Made by a program: the position numbers and the translations under genes
The notes under the pieces: generated by a model
Seen by the model: the letters and a program-made list of their open reading frames with translations, nothing else
Told to the model about the DNA's origin: nothing
Database searches by the model: none
IMG/VR virus record: IMGVR_UViG_3300031658_000131
Location: 1 to 23,602 of that record
Reading direction: 5' to 3' (one strand)
Length of the DNA: 23,602 bases
DNA from: a virus
Shown: piece by piece, positions 2,807 to 13,552 of the stretch
How the letters are laid out: every line of letters starts with the position of its first letter
Numbering within the stretch: the first letter of the stretch is position 1

Positions 2807-3790
2807 TTAAGACAAAGCATATTCAGACTTTAGAATATACTTACTTAAATCAGCTGAATCCTTCACCAATTGAATATCTTCACCAGTAACATCTTTGATA
2901 AATGTTTTAAGTGCGTCAGAGTCAGCAAGCTGTGCGAGTATAATTCTATAATTATTACGCACCTTATTCATATGGTTTGGTGATGCCCAGAATGAGTCAT
3001 GTATATGAGCTAACTGGAACCCTTGCTGATGTGCCATACGTACCATCATACGAGCTACCCACGCATCTAAACTATGGATATAGTTAGGACATAATGAGGT
3101 GTGCTTCGCACTAGGTTGGTTATTCGTATAACGATAAGTGAAGGTAGTATGATCAAGCTCATCGACCTCAATACGAGTATCTACAGCTTCTACAACCTTA
3201 ACCCTAGCAACATGCCCATCAGGTGTACCCCACTTGTGGTACAAGGCACTGGAGTCCCAGCAATCATTAATGAATTCCATTACATCCTCTGCTCCTGCGA
3301 ATGAGGAGTTAAGGACGTTATGAAATGCTGCTTCTCTAGCTGGCGTAAGGCTCTCCTGCGCAGACTTATTATAATAGTGGGTCATTACAGGCTTCTTAAC
3401 ATCAGCCCTTACAACGGCTTCTGTTGGATCTAAGAGCAGGTTCATTCCATCTGCTACTTCAGTGTAAACATCCTCACGCTTACCTGTATCAATAAGGTTA
3501 ACCGCAGCTGCAGTCTTCTTGCAGCCCGATAGGCATGCCATGATCTGAAGTCCTGAAGCAGTAGCGTCTAATGCCATAATGTACCCCGTTGGAGTACCTA
3601 TGATTGCACTCATGTACGCATTTATAGCTTTTGTGAACAAGAACTTATTAGCAGCCTGGTCTACTAGATTCAACAAGTCACGCTCGTTGTAGTCAAACCA
3701 GAAGATTCTGTCCTTCCATGACAATTTGTCCATACCAAACTCGTTGGCAGCTGCTATCTTGATATACTCGATACCTGTGAATTCTTGCAT
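2807..3790 (-). CDS. Split T7-type RNA polymerase, C-terminal catalytic subunit (N4 RNAP II p7-like)
   Basis: Makes RNA from phage middle promoters together with the N-subunit encoded at 4154-5020. Family landmarks of T7 RNAP are visible. Motif A is MALDATASGLQIMACLSG with catalytic Asp75. Motif B is R128..K132-K-P-V-M-T-H-Y-Y140, matching T7 Arg627, Lys631 and Tyr639. Motif C is AHIHDSF with catalytic Asp265. The C-terminus SEYALS matches the T7 'SDFAFA' end. The product begins where T7 RNAP reads GYYWLKIHGAN (here GIEYIKIAAAN). At 327 residues it is shorter than the matching T7 part (about 430), lacking much of the fingers-side insertions. ATG 3790 is preferred over TTG 3814 because AAGGGG lies 6 nt ahead. 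It follows the SLOG gene by 10 nt and ends at a terminator. Confidence 0.93.
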   Translation of the reverse strand: MQEFTGIEYIKIAAANEFGMDKLSWKDRIFWFDYNERDLLNLVDQAANKFLFTKAINAYMSAIIGTPTGYIMALDATASGLQIMACLSGCKKTAAAVNLIDTGKREDVYTEVADGMNLLLDPTEAVVRADVKKPVMTHYYNKSAQESLTPAREAAFHNVLNSSFAGAEDVMEFINDCWDSSALYHKWGTPDGHVARVKVVEAVDTRIEVDELDHTTFTYRYTNNQPSAKHTSLCPNYIHSLDAWVARMMVRMAHQQGFQLAHIHDSFWASPNHMNKVRNNYRIILAQLADSDALKTFIKDVTGEDIQLVKDSADLSKYILKSEYALS

Positions 3791-5685: not shown

Positions 5686-5955
5686 TCATTCTCCAATGTT
5701 GAACGCACATCCGTTCTCAGTCCTGGTTATATCTTTACGAGGTATCCCATTAGACACTAGGTCAGCAATACACTCATTCTGAATGTCATACTGATCTTGA
5801 TAAGATACAAAAGACTTAATCCCTGTATCTGCTAATATCACAATAGCTGCGATACCTGCAGTTATCATAATAGTCATACATGTAAGAAACAACACCATCA
5901 ATATAGTGTTATTACTACCCTTGACTTTAGTACTACGTTCTATTTTACGTCTCAT
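5686..5955 (-). CDS. Small single-pass membrane protein
   Basis: The 89-residue product has a positively charged start (MRRKIERSTKVKG), then a hydrophobic segment at about residues 17-42 (TILMVLFLTCMTIMITAGIA, then AIVIL). A roughly 45-residue hydrophilic tail follows with two cysteines (NECIADL and NGCAF). Positive-inside topology would put the tail in the periplasm, where the cysteines could form a disulphide. AGGGGC lies 5 nt before the ATG. Possible roles include superinfection exclusion or envelope modification. None is proven. Confidence 0.7.
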   Translation of the reverse strand: MRRKIERSTKVKGSNNTILMVLFLTCMTIMITAGIAAIVILADTGIKSFVSYQDQYDIQNECIADLVSNGIPRKDITRTENGCAFNIGE

Positions 5956-5981
5956 AACTTGCCCCTAATTTGGCTTATATA

Positions 5982-6019
5982 TAAAAAACAAGAGACCAAG
6001 CTTACGCCCAGTCCCTGTT
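5982..6019 (-). terminator. Intrinsic terminator after the 6024-6383 gene
   Basis: On the minus strand AACAGGGAC pairs with GTCTCTTGTT around a 14-nt loop. A run of six T follows. One pair is a G·U wobble only in the minus-strand RNA, giving the direction. It starts a few nt beyond the stop codon of the upstream gene. Confidence 0.65.
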
Positions 6020-6023
6020 CCTA

Positions 6024-6383
6024 TTAATCTGCGTTGATGTCGTCTGCAGACAATGCTCGGTTAAAGAACAAATCTTCCTTACCTAACTTCTGAATGAACA
6101 TGCTCTTACCTTCCTCAGAACCGTTCAACCAGCCTAATGTGATCTTACGACCCGCGTTATTCATACGAAACACTATGGTTCCCTTCTCACGGACGTCATA
6201 TCCCAGCTTAGCTTCATACTTAGCAAAGTACTCACCGTCAATGGTATCCCATGACTCTTTAGCTGCTACGTGTAGATTAATAATTCCACACTTATTACCT
6301 TCACTATCGTAAATGAATACACCAGGTGCTGGATTAGCTTTGATTACTGGAGCTTTCTTAGATACTGCTTTAGATTTGATCAT
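6024..6383 (-). CDS. Hypothetical early protein, 119 residues
   Basis: ATG 6383 (MIKSKAVSKKAPVIKA) has AAGGAAG upstream. An in-frame ATG at 6431 would add 16 residues but lies inside a shared upstream element (6420-6435), so I prefer 6383. The start is basic. The body is a probable beta-rich domain (GVFIYDSEGNKCGIINLHVA) and the end is acidic (ALSADDINAD). No family recognised. It forms its own unit: terminators lie on both sides, and the CCATATGG element lies about 36 nt upstream. Position next to the genome-end gap suggests an immediate early gene. Confidence 0.7.
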   Translation of the reverse strand: MIKSKAVSKKAPVIKANPAPGVFIYDSEGNKCGIINLHVAAKESWDTIDGEYFAKYEAKLGYDVREKGTIVFRMNNAGRKITLGWLNGSEEGKSMFIQKLGKEDLFFNRALSADDINAD

Positions 6384-6419
6384 AACAATTACTTCCTTAA
6401 TGGTATAAGACACGGATTG

Positions 6420-6435
6420 TGCCAACACCATATGG
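6420..6435 (-). promoter_or_regulatory. Repeated CCATATGG element, copy 1
   Basis: Minus-strand CCATATGGTGTTGGCA matches 14 of 16 bases with the element at 6761-6776. Both lie some 27-36 nt before the start of an early gene. CCATATGG is a perfect palindrome. It is a candidate early promoter or operator. The short stems here do not match the classic N4 vRNAP hairpin (5-7 bp stem, 3-nt loop). Confidence 0.45.
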
Positions 6436-6507
6436 AAAGGATATTAGATTTAACAGGCAACGTAACTATCGTGGGAGTGTGTAGGTGTCTAGTGTTAGAG
6501 TGTCTAT

Positions 6508-6531
6508 AAAAAAACCCTACCCGAAGGTAGG
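6508..6531 (-). terminator. Strong intrinsic terminator after the 6539-6733 gene
   Basis: On the minus strand CCTACC-TTCG-GGTAGG (6531-6516) has an especially stable UUCG-type loop. G and a run of seven T follow. It lies 7 nt past the stop of the 64-residue gene. Confidence 0.88.
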
Positions 6532-6538
6532 ATTAGAA

Positions 6539-6733
6539 TTATGCACGTCTACTTGCTATAAGGCTTCGTAGTGATGCACGTTCCTCTGGTGATGAGGATA
6601 GCTTAGCGATGTCTACGACTGCGTCATGGGTAGACTCTTCGATGGCTACGTATAGGTTGATATCTACTAGCTCTAGTACAGAGGTGATAGTATGAGTGGT
6701 GCTGCCAACTGTGGATGAGATAAACTTTAACAT
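6539..6733 (-). CDS. Hypothetical 64-residue first early protein
   Basis: Start ATG 6733 is chosen because TAGGAG lies 7 nt before it. The in-frame ATG at 6772 coincides with the shared upstream element and lacks a ribosome site. The product (MLKFISSTVGSTTHTITSVL, then ELVDINLYVAIEESTHDAVV) is small, with a helical C-terminus ending SLIASRRA. It has no recognisable family. As the gene nearest the divergent gap, with its own terminator, it is probably the first early transcription unit to be expressed. Confidence 0.68.
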   Translation of the reverse strand: MLKFISSTVGSTTHTITSVLELVDINLYVAIEESTHDAVVDIAKLSSSPEERASLRSLIASRRA

Positions 6734-6760
6734 GGTGATGCTCCTAGGATGTGGCATGAT

Positions 6761-6776
6761 TGCCAGTACCATATGG
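6761..6776 (-). promoter_or_regulatory. Repeated CCATATGG element, copy 2
   Basis: Minus-strand CCATATGGTACTGGCA is followed by ATCATGCC, so that GGCA-ATCA-TGCC can form a small hairpin. It is the partner of the element at 6420-6435 and lies about 27 nt before the ATG of the 64-residue early gene. A weaker match, ATATGGTGTT on the plus strand at 7131-7140, overlaps the start of the late operon. Confidence 0.45.
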
Positions 6777-6934
6777 TTAAGGGACGTTAAGGTCAGATTA
6801 ATGAGGGGGGGTGTTCTGTTAGTTGTTGCTGTGGGCTATTAGTACTGTACCCATACCTAATAATAATTTTCTTCTAAATACCTGTATTAGCTGTTACTGT
6901 TATATAGTATGTGTGTATTTAGCTTGTATTAGTG

Positions 6935-6968
6935 GTAGTAGGTAAGTACTATATAGTTACACTACTAC
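6935..6968. other. Hairpin in the divergent gap
   Basis: GTAGTAGGTAA (6935-6945) pairs with TTACACTACTAC (6957-6968), giving 11 pairs with one bulged base and an 11-nt loop (GTACTATATAG). No T-run follows on either strand, so it is not an ordinary terminator. Confidence 0.6.
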
Positions 6969-6985
6969 TGTTAAGGTAGTTCTTC

Positions 6986-6997
6986 AGGAGGTGATCC
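6986..6997 (+). promoter_or_regulatory. Full-length Shine-Dalgarno-like sequence without a start codon
   Basis: AGGAGGTGATCC is perfectly complementary to 12 nt of the usual bacterial 16S rRNA 3' end (GGATCACCTCCT). No ATG, GTG or TTG lies at the usual distance downstream, so it does not look like a ribosome site for a gene. On the minus strand the same bases copy the 16S tail itself. Confidence 0.6.
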
Positions 6998-7021
6998 TTC
7001 TCTTAGCTTAAGGCTTTGTTC

Positions 7022-7101
7022 AAGTACCTTATAAGAAGCGAGTAGGAGTAAGGCGAAGCGTAGCGAAAGCCTTACGACTACGAGTAGCTTATTTGGTACT
7101 T
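7022..7101. other. 80-nt symmetric hairpin upstream of the terminase genes
   Basis: From the outside in: AAGTACC/GGTACTT (7 bp); a 3x3 loop; TAAG/CTTA (4 bp); a 6x6 loop; GTAG/CTAC (4 bp); a GA/GA tandem mismatch; GTAAGGC/GCCTTAC (7 bp); and a 14-nt loop (GAAGCGTAGCGAAA). All internal loops are symmetric. Tandem GA/GA usually forms sheared pairs, so the rod is probably continuous. It could be a structured RNA, a packaging or terminus signal, or a processing site. It is not followed by a T-run. Confidence 0.75.
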
Positions 7102-7145
7102 ATCTATTAGACTATAACTGTATTATAAATTATATGGTGTTATCT

Positions 7146-7853
7146 ATGGATCCAAATACAGAAGTTAAAGAGGTATATCTGTCTAAGGAGGAGTTTAAAG
7201 CTACTCTGCCTAAGGCTATGAAGGGCCGTATAAGCGATGAGCTTATGGGTAGTATCAATGGTCTGCTTCAGGAGCAATCTACGAGAGTAGAGTTCCGTGA
7301 GAACCTGATAGGGTATGCAAGTGTGCTGGCGCAAGGCCGGTACAAGGTGGAGGATTATGTCTCTGCTGTGAAGTATGTGAGTCATAAGATGCTTGGCTCA
7401 ACCAATCTAGAATCATATGTGAAGACGTTCCCTGAGCGGTACCAGAGACTCCTGAATGATGGTGTCGATGACCATAGGGTTAGTGCGTATGCGTCTGCCT
7501 ACAACAAGAACCAGCTAGTTAATAAGATCTATGAGCAGACGCTTATACCGTCCCATATCCTGAATGCTGATGTGTTCCAGAAGGCGCTTAATGTGCAAGC
7601 TGAGTTGATGGTTCATGCCAATAGTGAGAAGGTTCGGAGTGATGCTGCGAATAGTCTCCTGACCCATCTTAAGAGACCTGAGGTTACTAAGATTGAGTTA
7701 GATGTTGGTTTAAAAGAAGATAAAACCATCAATGATCTGCGTCAGGCTACTATGGCTCTAGCCGCGAGCCAGCGGGATATGATAAAGTCGGGGATGATGA
7801 ATGCGAAAGAAGTCGCTCATAGTCAAATTATAGAAGGTGAGGTGGTAGAGTAA
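7146..7853 (+). CDS. Putative terminase small subunit (N4-like)
   Basis: A 235-residue, mostly helical soluble protein with an acidic start (MDPNTEVKEVYLSKEEFKA). It has a probable helix-turn-helix region (about residues 70-100, VEDYVSAVKYVSHKMLGSTN) and a segment ANSLLTHLKRPEVTKIELDV near residue 185. The C-terminus is typical of phage small terminases (LRQATMALAASQRDMIKSGM, then NAKEVAHSQIIEGEVVE). Small terminases bind the packaging site and load the large subunit. Position two genes before the large terminase supports this. ATG 7146 is preferred over 7134 because GGTG lies ahead of it. No strong ribosome site is present for either. Its stop overlaps the next ATG as TAATG. Confidence 0.6.
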   Translation: MDPNTEVKEVYLSKEEFKATLPKAMKGRISDELMGSINGLLQEQSTRVEFRENLIGYASVLAQGRYKVEDYVSAVKYVSHKMLGSTNLESYVKTFPERYQRLLNDGVDDHRVSAYASAYNKNQLVNKIYEQTLIPSHILNADVFQKALNVQAELMVHANSEKVRSDAANSLLTHLKRPEVTKIELDVGLKEDKTINDLRQATMALAASQRDMIKSGMMNAKEVAHSQIIEGEVVE

Positions 7854-8515: not shown

Positions 8516-8735
8516 TTTACATGAGGAAAGCTTCTCGATTAATGGAGAGGTGTACGATTTTTGTACAATTAAAAACTTTTCCCTTTGTTTTATGGATCTA
8601 ATAGTTTTAATTGAATATACAGAATCTAAGAAAATTATTAAATGCACAAGTGAAGACGAATTTATTTTTTTATTAAAAAAGATGGAAACAGCTCATAATG
8701 TTTTTATTTTTACGCAGGAAAATCTATGTCATTAA
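8466..8735 (+). CDS. Possible small AT-rich gene before the large terminase
   Basis: An 89-codon frame ends 10 nt inside the large terminase gene. It overlaps the previous gene by 50 nt if it starts at ATG 8466 (weak GGTGG ahead). The unique part, from NGEVYDFCTIKNFSLCFMDL to the end, reads like a real protein and is much AT-richer than upstream genes. An in-frame ATT at 8538 sits 9 nt after GAGGAA and would give a natural-looking INGEVYDF start, but ATT starts are rare. The start is therefore uncertain. Function unknown. Confidence 0.5.
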   Translation: MCSLKVVGKSLLDFLTNLHEESFSINGEVYDFCTIKNFSLCFMDLIVLIEYTESKKIIKCTSEDEFIFLLKKMETAHNVFIFTQENLCH

Positions 8736-10318
8736 ATACTGCACCACAATCAGTCGAAGAGTTAGTTAATAATGTTAGTTTCGACACAGATCCTTATTAT
8801 GTTCCGAGTAGTTTTGCTTTAGAGTTCGTTAACTTTATTAAACTAGTTAATGGAGCAGAAGGTGAGGAGAATAAAACTCCAGTCCTTCATTATAAAATGT
8901 TAGATCAGATTGCGACGGGTGATGCCGACATATTAAATATGTTATTCCGTGGATCTGCTAAAACAACACTAATGGGTGAGTATTTATTCTTATATATTGC
9001 AACTTATGGTGGATTCCCAGAGTTTGATGTTGATTTAGCGTTATATGTTTCTGACAGTATAGAGAACGGCGTTAAAAACATGCGGAAGAATTTGGAGTAT
9101 CGTTATGAGAATAGTGATTTTCTTAAAATTTATGTTCCCTTTACTAAGTTCACGGATATTCGTTGGGAATTCCGGAATTCAGAAGGTAAGACGTTTATCG
9201 TAAAAGGTTACGGTGCAAGTACGGGTGTTCGTGGTAGTAAGGAGATGGGTAAGAGACCTACCTTAGCTATATTGGATGACTTGGTGTCGGATGAGGATGC
9301 ACGGTCTCCAACGGTTATTAAATCCATTGAAGATACTGTTTATAAGGCCATCAACTACGCTCTACATCCAATGCGTCGCAGGATTATCTGGTCAGGTACT
9401 CCATTTAACTCTAAGGATCCATTGTATAAGGCTGTTGAGTCTGGTGCCTGGAGTGTGAACGTATTCCCGGTATGTGAGAAGTTCCCATGTAGTAGGGAGG
9501 ACTTCAGAGGTGCTTGGGATGACCGATTCACCTACGAGTACATAGAAGAGCAGTACAACCGTGCAGTGAAGACCGGTCAGATCGCTTCCTTCAACCAGGA
9601 GCTCATGTTGCGCATCATGTCTGACGAAGACAGACTGGTGCAGAACGGAGACATCATTTGGTACGAGCGTAAGGGACTTCTTAAGAACAAAGGTGCTTAT
9701 AATTTCTATATAACTACTGACTTTGCTACGAGCGAGAAAAGTAGTGCTGACTATAGTGTTATATCGGTGTGGGCCCTCAACAGTAACGGTGACTGGTTAT
9801 GGGTCGATGGTATCTGTAAGCGTCAGCTTATGGATCAAAACATTGATGATCTATTCCGTTTGGCTCAGATGTACAAACCACAGCAGGTTGGGGTGGAAGT
9901 GACTGGCCAGCAGGGAGGATTTATCCAATGGATCCAACGTGAGATGACCAACCGTAACAACTACTTCACACTAGCCTCTGAGGGCAACAGTAATAGACCT
10001 GGGATACGTCCGTCTACTAACAAGATGCAGCGATTCAACATTGTGTTACCTTGGTTCAAGATGAAGAAGATCTGGTTCCCTGAGGAGATGAAGCACGATC
10101 CAATCATTGTAGAAGCAATAGATGAGCTATCATTAGCGTCAGCTGCAGGCTTTAAGAGCAAGCACGATGACTTCATTGATACCATCTCAATGCTTGGCTC
10201 ACTTAACTCGTGGAGACCTAGCCAGGAGGTGCAGTCTTCCCTTGGCAGTGATAACTCTGTAATATGGGACGACGATGACGATGACATTTCCTCATACTAC
10301 GATTCATATATTGTGTAG
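8726..10318 (+). CDS. terL: Terminase large subunit (N4 gp68-like)
   Basis: ATP-driven DNA packaging motor with a nuclease domain, acting at the portal. The 530 residues carry an atypical Walker A, FRGSAKTT (74-81), and a Walker B, LAILDDLVSDED (180-191). The coupling motif is WSGTPF (222-227). An RNase H-like nuclease domain has acidic residues at Asp332 (ITTDFA), Glu391 (VGVEVTG) and Asp481/482/485 (HDDFID). Length and motif spacing match N4-type terminases. The tail ends in a run of six Asp (WDDDDDDISS). CAGGAA lies 5 nt before the ATG. The first about 170 codons are AT-richer than the rest, suggesting a mosaic history. Confidence 0.95.
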   Translation: MSLNTAPQSVEELVNNVSFDTDPYYVPSSFALEFVNFIKLVNGAEGEENKTPVLHYKMLDQIATGDADILNMLFRGSAKTTLMGEYLFLYIATYGGFPEFDVDLALYVSDSIENGVKNMRKNLEYRYENSDFLKIYVPFTKFTDIRWEFRNSEGKTFIVKGYGASTGVRGSKEMGKRPTLAILDDLVSDEDARSPTVIKSIEDTVYKAINYALHPMRRRIIWSGTPFNSKDPLYKAVESGAWSVNVFPVCEKFPCSREDFRGAWDDRFTYEYIEEQYNRAVKTGQIASFNQELMLRIMSDEDRLVQNGDIIWYERKGLLKNKGAYNFYITTDFATSEKSSADYSVISVWALNSNGDWLWVDGICKRQLMDQNIDDLFRLAQMYKPQQVGVEVTGQQGGFIQWIQREMTNRNNYFTLASEGNSNRPGIRPSTNKMQRFNIVLPWFKMKKIWFPEEMKHDPIIVEAIDELSLASAAGFKSKHDDFIDTISMLGSLNSWRPSQEVQSSLGSDNSVIWDDDDDDISSYYDSYIV

Positions 10319-10327
10319 AGACAGAAC

Positions 10328-12337
10328 ATGACTACAGCAGCAGAATACGCAGCATTAGCAGCAACTGAAGCAAACCTCGCAGCTACTGCAGCTGTTGAGG
10401 TACAGAATAAGGTAGCTATTGCAGAATCATCTGCAAACCTAGCTACAACTCATGCTGCAACTGTCGGTGCAAGTGTAACAGGCGCAGCAGCCTCAAGTAG
10501 TGCTGCAGCTATACAGGCTATTGTAGCCGAGAACTATAGGGATCTCGCACAACTGTGGGCAAACGCCGATCCAAACGTTGTAGTGGAGGGCACTGCGTTC
10601 TCTGCAAGACACCAAGCGCTATCCACCATCGCTACACTAGCCGCGATGCAGGTTAATTTAGATGCTACGGCAGTTAGCTATGCAGCTGATAAAGCAGTAG
10701 CGGACGCTGCACGAGAGTATTTAGCGTACAGATTAGATACTGGGGATCTAGTGTTTGATAGTAGCGGTATTGACGGAGACATCAGTAATCTAACTGGATC
10801 AGTCAATAGCCAGTTAGCACAGAAGTTAAGTGTTGCCCTCTACAACAGTGACACACTTGGCCTGGCTGATTTTGCTAAGTCTAGTAATGTATCCTTAGAA
10901 AATAAGATAAGTGATTACTTAGATGAAGCTGGTCAAATAGCGTTACAGGCTATGCTTGCAGGAGCAGAGAATACAACTAAGCTCAGCTATGCAGGTGTAG
11001 TAGTTGATCCAACCACCGGCAATATAACTAATGCTGCAGGCTCTGCAGTAGCTACCGAATATGGTGTACGGATGGCCTCCGTAGAGTCCATTATGGATGG
11101 TCAGGGTAAATACACTATAGCTGTACAACAACAGCTAGCAAATAGTATTGCTACGGTTCAGCAAACAATGGAAACAAGTATCTCTAATGTAGTTGATGGT
11201 ACTACTTCTATTAACTTACATAGTGCTACTGTTGATGGCACCAGTTCTATTGTGCAGTACGTTACAAGTGAGACAGATGCACTTGTAGTGGTTAACTCTG
11301 GTACTCCTGCACAACGTGCCGCCTTAACCGGTATGGATACAAATGACCTGTTCATCGAAAAGACTACTGAGACGGGTAGCTCAGGTGTAACGATTGATGT
11401 ATCCAACACATACAAGTACAACGGTACCGCCTGGGTAAAGATCGGTAACAATGCAAACACTCTTGCCTTAGCAGACTTAGCAGATGGTAAGCGTAGTATA
11501 TTTAGTAATGTGTCCCATACTCTTCCGTCAGGTGCAGTAGTAGACGATCTCTGGATCCCTATGACTGGTACCAATGATGCAACATACATACCTGGTGAGG
11601 TGTATCAATACAGCGGTAGTTCCTGGGCAGTAGCTACCAAGTTCTCGGCAGAGATTACCACAGTAAACTCTAAGTACTCAGTTAAGATTAACGCAGCAGG
11701 ACATATTGCAGGTTTTGGATTAACCTCTACTGCTAATAATGATGTTACAGACTCTGGGTTTAGTGAATTTACTGTAGCTGCTGACTCACTCAGAGTGGGT
11801 GGGGTACAAAGTGATGGTACTGTTTCAACTACAGTCCCATTTCGTGTCATAACAGATGGTGGTGTTACAGGCGGAGGAGTGTGTGTTTCCTCTGCTGGTG
11901 TAGAGTCCGGTGGAGTGACACAAGCAGCGTGTGCTACAGCAGGTGGTACTTGGCTCCCTCCAGGTACTTGGATGAGTGACACATACATGAAGTCTGCCAA
12001 TATATCAGGCATGCTGACCGTAGGTAGTCCTGTTGCTACTTCCATAGCAGCTGCCCAGTCTGGTGCAGAAGCAACAGCTTCAGGTGACGCCACTAGTAAG
12101 GCGAATGCTGCTAAGACTGGGGCAGAGCTCACAGCATCAAATGCGCTAGGTGTTGTCACGACAAACATTTACTCCCCTAGTACCACAACTATCAATGGAG
12201 GCAAGATCACTACAGGGTCGCTATATGCAAACCAGATAACCACAGGTACAGGAAATGAGAGGATTGAGATCAATAACGATTCTATCCGGGTGTACAACGG
12301 CGGCGTTCTTAGAGTTAAGATTGGCAACCTAAGCTAA
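10328..12337 (+). CDS. Tail appendage/fibre protein with DUF1983-like domain
   Basis: The 669-residue virion protein starts with an alanine-rich coiled coil (residues 1-70). A tail-fibre linker of the 'LWAN..DPNVVVEGTAFSARH' type follows (76-95). Residues about 360-440 hold two YxYxGxxWxxA strand motifs (TYKYNGTAWVKIG, VYQYSGSSWAVA). Residues 440-510 (VNSKYSVKINAAGHIAGFGL, then FTVAADSLRVG and PFRVITDGG) match the DUF1983 domain of siphovirus tail-tip protein J. A cysteine pair sits in GGGVCVSSAGVESGG and TQAACATAGGTW (518-541). The end, INGGKITTGSLYANQITTG, is the oligomerising C-terminal module seen in J-like proteins. The start has only a weak ribosome site. It follows terL, where N4 carries its tail appendage genes. 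Confidence 0.8.
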   Translation: MTTAAEYAALAATEANLAATAAVEVQNKVAIAESSANLATTHAATVGASVTGAAASSSAAAIQAIVAENYRDLAQLWANADPNVVVEGTAFSARHQALSTIATLAAMQVNLDATAVSYAADKAVADAAREYLAYRLDTGDLVFDSSGIDGDISNLTGSVNSQLAQKLSVALYNSDTLGLADFAKSSNVSLENKISDYLDEAGQIALQAMLAGAENTTKLSYAGVVVDPTTGNITNAAGSAVATEYGVRMASVESIMDGQGKYTIAVQQQLANSIATVQQTMETSISNVVDGTTSINLHSATVDGTSSIVQYVTSETDALVVVNSGTPAQRAALTGMDTNDLFIEKTTETGSSGVTIDVSNTYKYNGTAWVKIGNNANTLALADLADGKRSIFSNVSHTLPSGAVVDDLWIPMTGTNDATYIPGEVYQYSGSSWAVATKFSAEITTVNSKYSVKINAAGHIAGFGLTSTANNDVTDSGFSEFTVAADSLRVGGVQSDGTVSTTVPFRVITDGGVTGGGVCVSSAGVESGGVTQAACATAGGTWLPPGTWMSDTYMKSANISGMLTVGSPVATSIAAAQSGAEATASGDATSKANAAKTGAELTASNALGVVTTNIYSPSTTTINGGKITTGSLYANQITTGTGNERIEINNDSIRVYNGGVLRVKIGNLS

Positions 12338-12347
12338 GGTACACTAT

Positions 12348-12635
12348 ATGAGTTATGGATTTAGAATGTGGGGAGCGGACTCAAGCATAGAGTACGACTC
12401 CAGCTCTGTTACATGGAACCAAGTAGACTTTTATTCAGTTGGTGCTGGATCCTCTGACACACGAACCTTTAGTTCACTATCAGGCAAGGAGGTCAAAGTA
12501 GGCATGTTTTTCATTGACCCGCCTTACTCCACAAGGAAGGCTACCTCACACACAGCTACCCTTAGTAACGGAAATACAACAATTAGTATAAGTGGGGGAT
12601 CAGAATCTATGTACATCCTAGTGTTAATGCGATGA
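12348..12635 (+). CDS. Small beta-rich tail accessory protein, 95 residues
   Basis: Begins MSYGFRMWGADSSIEYDSSS and ends TLSNGNTTISISGGSESMYI with LVLMR. The alternating pattern suggests a small beta sandwich. The MSYG start is shared with the next gene, so they may be paralogues or a split pair. AAGG lies 8 nt before the ATG. The stop overlaps the following ATG by 4 nt. Proteins of this type commonly sit just after J-like tail genes in marine phages. A virion role is inferred from that. Confidence 0.7.
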   Translation: MSYGFRMWGADSSIEYDSSSVTWNQVDFYSVGAGSSDTRTFSSLSGKEVKVGMFFIDPPYSTRKATSHTATLSNGNTTISISGGSESMYILVLMR

Positions 12636-13552
12636 GTTACGGATTAGAGGCTACTAATGCAGCTGGCCAGGTCTTAATATCATCTGAATTTAAGAACCTG
12701 CACTTTAAGCAGAAGAAGACATCACCAGACTACACTGACAGGAATTCAAGTGGTATATTTGGTGGGGTTAAATTGATGCGCTATAGGTTCAATCTTAGCG
12801 AGACACCTGTACCATTCTTTCATGTACCCTCCGGTAACAGCTGTGCTATAACTGCGGTTAGAAGTGTGTCATCTGGAGTGTGGGATGTTGAGGTGCTAAC
12901 TAATGGCGTTAATCCTGAGATCTATATCTTTGCAACGGCTGCTGTAACATCTTCAGGGGACACATACGGCGTACAGGTCTTCAATAATAGTAACCAAGTC
13001 ACCTTTGATAGCCGGGCAACCCCCTTACTGGTGACGGGGCTTGTTACCTTATCACAACCTAGCCAACCGAGTAGTAGTTACTCTTCCTCGGGCCTTAGCT
13101 CTGAGAGTTGCAGTACAGCAGTTGCCACTTATAGTGCCTCCTTTGTACCTGACAATACATCTTCATACAGCACTAGTCTGCCCACAAAGCCCCTATTCTT
13201 TTTCTCATCTAATGCTCAGGCAGAAAGGGAAATCCATGTATCTACGACCGATAGTGTCTGTGATGGTATAAGTGTAAAGGGCAACTGTATTGGTTTACTG
13301 AGAGAGTACGAATATGATAGTTACTATTGGGCGTTCTATAGGAACGTTATACAATGGAGCTCAGGCTCGTTGAAGTCAACTTGGTGTGTATCCGATTGGG
13401 GGTGCCATTGGACGTACAATACAGACTCTTATGCAATTGGTATTGGAACAGGGGGTAGCTCAGCCTCCGGTGGTAGCTGGCCTTATAGTAATGAGACAAT
13501 AAATACATTCAATAACACTGTTATAATTGGCGATGCGAGCTACTATGATTAA
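12632..13552 (+). CDS. Beta-rich tail protein, 306 residues
   Basis: Starts MSYGLEATNAAGQVLISSEF, the common opening of small tail-tip accessory proteins. The first about 120 residues look like a jelly-roll (VPFFHVPSGNSCAITAVRSV). A Ser/Thr-rich linker follows (SQPSQPSSSYSSSGLSSESC). The C-terminal domain is rich in Tyr, Trp and Cys (EYDSYYWAFYRNVIQWSSGS, then STWCVSDWGCHW), an aromatic surface typical of a carbohydrate-contacting region. Receptor binding is plausible but unproven. The stop overlaps the next ATG by 8 nt (ATGATTAA). Confidence 0.75.
   Translation: MSYGLEATNAAGQVLISSEFKNLHFKQKKTSPDYTDRNSSGIFGGVKLMRYRFNLSETPVPFFHVPSGNSCAITAVRSVSSGVWDVEVLTNGVNPEIYIFATAAVTSSGDTYGVQVFNNSNQVTFDSRATPLLVTGLVTLSQPSQPSSSYSSSGLSSESCSTAVATYSASFVPDNTSSYSTSLPTKPLFFFSSNAQAEREIHVSTTDSVCDGISVKGNCIGLLREYEYDSYYWAFYRNVIQWSSGSLKSTWCVSDWGCHWTYNTDSYAIGIGTGGSSASGGSWPYSNETINTFNNTVIIGDASYYD

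Follow-up and report, generated by a model that had tools for sequence, protein, structure and literature searches.

The window, the whole 23,602-nucleotide stretch of viral DNA analysed here, comes from an N4-like phage (Schitoviridae) with a split RNA polymerase on the minus strand and the small and large terminase subunits (TerS and TerL) on the plus strand. TerL shares up to 69% identity with isolate phages. The first leftward (minus-strand) gene begins near 6772, and between it and TerS lies an 80-nt hairpin, which thus sits between divergent transcription units and has no obvious through-transcript. The features of this region are:

6805..6811, plus strand: G-run of the N4-family end element, matching an element near the ends of N4 and IME11
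6845..6858, no strand: predicted left end and terminal-repeat boundary, from the 32-34 nt spacing in N4/IME11 and the CCCATACC motif
7022..7101, plus strand: whole hairpin; the GA/GA-bearing strand is assumed to be the folding strand
7022..7028, plus strand: outer stem AAGTACC, paired with GGTACTT at 7095-7101; a G-C pair becomes A-T in L007
7040..7041, plus strand: outer GA of a tandem GA/GA, partner 7082-7083, context C-GA-G / C-GA-G
7046..7047, plus strand: inner GA of a tandem GA/GA, partner 7076-7077
7048..7054, plus strand: apical stem GTAAGGC, paired with GCCTTAC at 7069-7075
7053..7070, plus strand: near-invariant core GCGAAGCGTAGCGAAAGC (GCGAAGCGNAGCGARAGC), with three overlapping GNA/GNNA mini-hairpin sequences
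7108..7130, plus strand: conserved block TAGACTATAACTGTATTATAAAT between hairpin and TerS, near-invariant in six relatives
7146..7853, plus strand: small terminase candidate (TerS), phrog_2109 (unannotated), in the position of N4 gp69
8726..10318, plus strand: terminase large subunit (TerL), phrog_38, E 9.7e-101

For TerS, a start at 7146 is more probable than one at 7134, because the ATGGATC at the former is conserved in 6/6 relatives and the upstream ATG is not. The block at 7108-7130 (near-invariant TAGACTATRACTNTRTTATAAAT) is a possible TerS promoter, perhaps a late one; it contains no sigma-70 consensus match. A direct repeat, TGCCANNACCATATGG, occurs at 6420-6435 and 6761-6776, in both cases where a minus-strand early ORF begins, and is a candidate early promoter element of a kind other than the N4 5-bp/3-nt type. 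A single terminator-like site occurs within 6400-7300, on the minus strand at 6513-6534. An earlier, sequence-only reading of this DNA had held that the hairpin is neither a terminator nor part of a gene, and we concur on both points: an intrinsic terminator is rejected because no U-tract follows the stem (the DNA has no T-run), and no annotatable gene lies within the hairpin.

The hairpin proposed in that reading exists at the coordinates given, 7022-7101, and its stability greatly exceeds chance. Its RNA minimum free energy is -37.2 kcal/mol, against -16.9 +/- 2.7 for shuffled sequences (z -7.6; 0/200 shuffles as stable). With DNA parameters, which give far smaller fold energies than RNA parameters, the value is -14.1 (z -3.2). 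The ladder runs in the order 7 bp, TT/TT, 5 bp, AA/AG, 2 bp (GC/GU), GA/GA, 4 bp, GA/GA and 7 bp, its four internal steps (TT/TT, AA/AG, GA/GA, GA/GA) all being symmetric and 2x2, and is closed by a 14-nt apical loop, GAAGCGTAGCGAAA, in which an internal GC-GTA-GC is able to pair as a mini-hairpin. The apical loop, the 7-bp outer and apical stems and the GA/GA tandem had been recognized previously; the inner stems, given then as 4 and 4 bp, are 5, 2 and 4 bp, the supposed 6x6 loop resolves into AA/AG, GC/GU and GA/GA, and the supposed 3x3 loop is 2x2. In all nine hairpins tested (9/9) the GA strand folds better than its complement with both RNA and DNA parameters.

Relatives were gathered through the TerL protein, and the hairpin was not used for selection. 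It is present at the equivalent place in L012, L007, L009, L004-L006 and L022/L023, lying ~45-125 nt upstream of TerS in close relatives, so that its place in front of the small terminase, noted from the window, is one that relatives keep. We made the covariation alignment by hand to the structure, as MAFFT put stem indels out of register. In this alignment, which is fitted to the fold, 101/108 pair cells (93.5%) are paired, compared with 29-44% for slid-partner controls, and 9 pairs have changed on both sides, compared with 1-4 in the controls. Changes on one arm left uncompensated on the other had been named beforehand as counter-evidence; we looked for these and found instead the compensatory changes expected of a conserved structure. 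The apical stem is GTAAGGC/GCCTTAC in the window, GTTGGC/GCCAAC in L007 and L009, and GACAGC/GCTGTC in L004; GTAG/CTAC, GAAG/CTTC and GGT/ACC are further stem variants, and stem lengths also vary. Tandem GA/GA steps are retained by most close relatives: the outer step is kept in L007, L009 and L004 and missing in L022, and the inner step is kept in L007, L009 and L022, with GA opposite TT in L004. G-U wobbles occur on the GA strand of the aligned hairpins. The apical loop GAAGCGNAGCGARA is almost unchanged across close relatives, and variation in the 18-nt core is limited to two positions, N (A or T) and R. The element is a genuine, conserved and previously undescribed structure. Nucleotide BLAST of the hairpin and intergenic region against isolate phages returned no homologue, and Rfam covariance models gave nothing at the gathering threshold, the hairpin being unmatched even at a permissive E-value.

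The core is absent from four large relatives (L033, L039, L064 and L073), no comparable hairpin was found upstream in these four, and most other Schitoviridae of the set are without the core. The hairpin is therefore a trait of one sub-lineage. More distant N4-like contigs carry GA/GA hairpins with different loops at L013 2936-2970 and L014 922-960, in matching positions ~750-780 nt ahead of TerS, past the G-run toward the early genes; we did not count these, as ~2 such hairpins are expected by chance over the set, and they may be analogous structures or chance. The core in the N4-like contig L094 sits inside an ORF and was judged to be chance. In the same contig the large terminase gene (10161-12740) appears to be split by an intein-like insertion starting near SLDSSVYTVDG, an interruption for which phiJA1 provides a precedent (PMC3670811).

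The core is built from a known class of small DNA structure. As DNA, GNA/GNNA hairpins of the GCGAAGC type have exceptional stability and resist nucleases (Hirao, Yoshizawa and colleagues; PMC4686876), and GCGAAGC, GCGNAGC and GCGARAGC all occur within the core, whose variable N is the loop position where GNA loops tolerate change. These mini-hairpins are known as isolated DNA fragments or aptamer parts, whereas here they lie inside a conserved natural 80-nt element.

The hairpin is close to a predicted genome end. In the N4-like phage IME11 the mapped ends lie 32 nt past the G-run (PMC3896407), and the recorded left end of N4 is 34 nt from a C-run. From the G-run at 6805-6811 and this spacing we infer a left genome end for the window phage near 6845-6858; the matches to the mapped IME11 end and to the N4 left end thus favour the position of the genome end guessed at in the sequence-only reading. 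In the stretch 6805-6858 the G-run precedes a short, imperfect hairpin and CCCATACC. In most relatives that cover this stretch, the G-run lies ~130-730 nt upstream of TerS and always on the same strand, and the element is useful for predicting Schitoviridae genome ends. By the predicted end, the 80-nt hairpin would lie ~165 bp from the left end, beyond the terminal-repeat junction toward the terminase genes, and in virion DNA would occupy unique sequence just before the right-hand repeat.

We scanned viral contigs for the core with its flanks unconstrained, obtaining 112 distinct sites. At 14 of these the flanks pair or form GA/GA for 7 or more steps without interruption on either side; when right flanks were shuffled among sites, the mean was 0.35 such sites (maximum 4). 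The 14 sites fall into seven unrelated groups: N4-like phages, a marine group (L171, L213, L161 and others), L098, L100, L132, L149 and L160. In Vibrio Maculvirus, dozens of genomes carry a hairpin with this core that is weaker yet conserved; in VP93 it is 877 bp away from the annotated terminal repeat, with the late genes on its other side. The hairpin is ~100 bp upstream of TerS and antisense in L098, ~2 kb upstream of TerL in L160/L216 and L092, beside an HNH gene in L100, ~28 kb from TerL in L149 and ~23 kb from TerL, near no known end, in the marine group, nearness to TerL being biased by short contigs. The recurrence of one loop in unrelated phages points to a shared role, likeliest in the handling of viral DNA ends.

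The marine group has a genome of at least 105 kb and a hairpin of roughly 100 nt with the same apical loop; many of its contigs end close by, and no isolate relatives were found for it. Its contigs are L214 (hairpin at about 6514), L120, L150, L161, L171, L176, L185, L192 and L213, with L217, L218, L220 and L227 in addition. A Microviridae (single-stranded DNA phage) contig, L104, has the core with GA flanks at 3102-3123, intergenic and on the gene strand; this hairpin folds weakly, and a BLAST search found no isolate that carries the core. In cellular genomes, the core with GA flanks is mostly a dispersed intergenic repeat, GTCATCCCGACCGAAGCGGAGCGAGAGCGAAGCGGAGTGGAGGGATC, of one rumen Clostridia MAG, also seen in related MAGs (JAFXVJ01 contigs, for example L251 4258-4279).

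The explanation we favour, tentatively and at a little short of an even chance, is that the hairpin acts as DNA, on one strand, when the terminal repeat is replicated, duplicated or processed. Counted in its favour are the retention of the hairpin by relatives found through TerL, its constant location between the predicted end and TerS, and its presence near terminase genes in the unrelated contigs L098, L092 and L160/L216; counted against it are the marine group and L149, in which the hairpin is far from TerL and so not always terminase-adjacent, the lack of the core in most other Schitoviridae of the set, and fold energies that are much larger under RNA than under DNA parameters. The main rival, which we consider unlikely but well worth weighing, is a structured RNA (a small RNA or an untranslated TerS leader) whose stem has tandem G-A steps and whose apical loop would bind protein or RNA. 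The very strong RNA fold and the G-U wobbles on the GA strand fit this. So do the N4-like hairpins, which are sense relative to TerS, and, in the marine group, a kink-turn-like 3-nt bulge with GA/GA in sense orientation to the upstream gene. However, in Maculvirus, L098 and L160 the neighbouring late or terminase genes run antisense to the hairpin, the promoter-like block lies between the hairpin and TerS, no promoter was found upstream of the hairpin, and Rfam holds no match. The GA-strand polarity relative to TerS is inconsistent in L098 and L160, which also counts against the favoured explanation. In VP93 and the window alike, by contrast, the GA strand reads 5'-repeat, hairpin, terminase-side DNA-3', with the opposite relation to transcription in the two phages, which favours DNA over RNA. 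We place DNA ahead of RNA without proof, on the basis of the GNA/GNNA core, the varying orientation to genes, the constant orientation to the repeat and the location between divergent units.

The bacterial copies raise the alternative that the element is a REP-like dispersed palindrome, a passenger in phages with no phage function. The core with GA/GA flanks recurs many times between genes in the rumen MAG and in other bacterial genomes, and the rumen repeat (RGIG6780) shares with the phage element a stem, a GA/GA step and a GCGNAGC-rich loop. The bacterial repeat, though, has many copies per genome and a short single stem. The phage element is single-copy and fixed in position: the core occurs once in the window even with 3 mismatches allowed, and once in each near-complete relative that possesses it, rather than in the many dispersed copies of a REP, and its stems have been rewritten by compensatory changes under a constant loop. 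We regard this alternative as decidedly unlikely. The packaging signal suggested in the sequence-only reading would be a pac site, a hairpin or duplex that the terminase recognizes, with TerS binding to it ahead of the first cut. The hairpin does adjoin TerS and the predicted end, and adjoins TerS or TerL in several unrelated contigs, but the TerS proteins come from different families while the loop is identical, and the marine-group hairpin is remote from TerL. Terminal-repeat processing or replication accounts for the location at least equally well, and we consider a pac site very doubtful. An early promoter of the N4 virion-RNA-polymerase (vRNAP) type is scarcely credible. The GCGNAGC triloop does recall the hairpins GTTGC-GAA-GCAAC and AAGAAGC-GGA-GCTTCTT near the N4 left end, which lie on one strand, and GCGTAGC is on the plus strand, the would-be template strand for the minus-strand early genes. 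Those promoters, however, have a perfect 5-7 bp stem and a 3-nt loop, whereas here an 80-nt interrupted ladder carries a triloop closed by just 2 bp, and no perfect 5-bp/3-nt hairpin occurs within 5900-7140. Moreover, the hairpin lies outside the left end, the end that enters first, and Maculvirus belongs to Autographiviridae. The likeness to N4 promoter P1 remarked on previously thus extends to a common 7-base mini-hairpin and, as was said, not to the 5-bp/3-nt stem; the N4 7-mer is GCGAAGC and not CGAAGCG.

Phages with one terminal repeat per concatemer junction must duplicate the repeat. If the hairpin acts as DNA in this process, the plus (GA) strand would be exposed as a single strand close to the terminal-repeat junction when DNA is replicated, strands are displaced or concatemers are cut, and would fold into a rigid hairpin held by the tandem G-A steps and capped by a GNA mini-hairpin. 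Such a hairpin, ~165 bp outside the left end, could be a landmark for priming, protein loading or nicking that lets the single repeat copy at each concatemer junction be copied and both ends be cut. Hairpin-primed synthesis on the GA strand would head toward and then through the repeat, with the same polarity in the window and VP93. That the element acts as DNA, that it serves end processing and which step it would assist (priming, nicking, protein loading or protection) are all inferred.

A comparable use of terminal hairpins is proposed for T7 and N4. T7, also a terminal-repeat phage, has a reported concatemer-junction hairpin (Chung and Hinkle 1990, cited in PMC4281155); PMC4281155 ties that hairpin to repeat-bearing DNA, gives it a proposed role in repeat duplication and describes strand-displacement or primase-initiated synthesis models. 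The best-folding hairpins near the right repeat of T7 and T3 are unrelated in sequence and lack the GA/GA ladder and the GCGNAGC loop. N4 is of the same virus family and has the same G-run end element, and hairpin priming at its 3' end is stated in PMC3896407, which cites earlier work on N4. It differs in that gp70-gp72 separate gp69 from the right end, an interval in which no GA/GA hairpin was found.

The GNA/GNNA cap and tandem G-A ladder might, on a broader and unlikely supposition, be a DNA hairpin signal common to unrelated phage families and recognised on displaced or single-stranded viral DNA, perhaps for priming or end processing. Such a module would span Schitoviridae, Vibrio Autographiviridae, a marine group of about 100 kb and others. 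If true, this would amount to a DNA-structure code common to phages and read by a conserved host factor, since the phage proteins are unrelated. That unrelated phages and dispersed bacterial repeats have one loop in common suggests a signal in DNA structure, overlooked by standard RNA-oriented annotation. How the repeat is duplicated at single-copy concatemer junctions is a long-standing question, studied chiefly in T7, and a hairpin that is conserved and whose distance from the end can be predicted offers a concrete sequence for manipulation.
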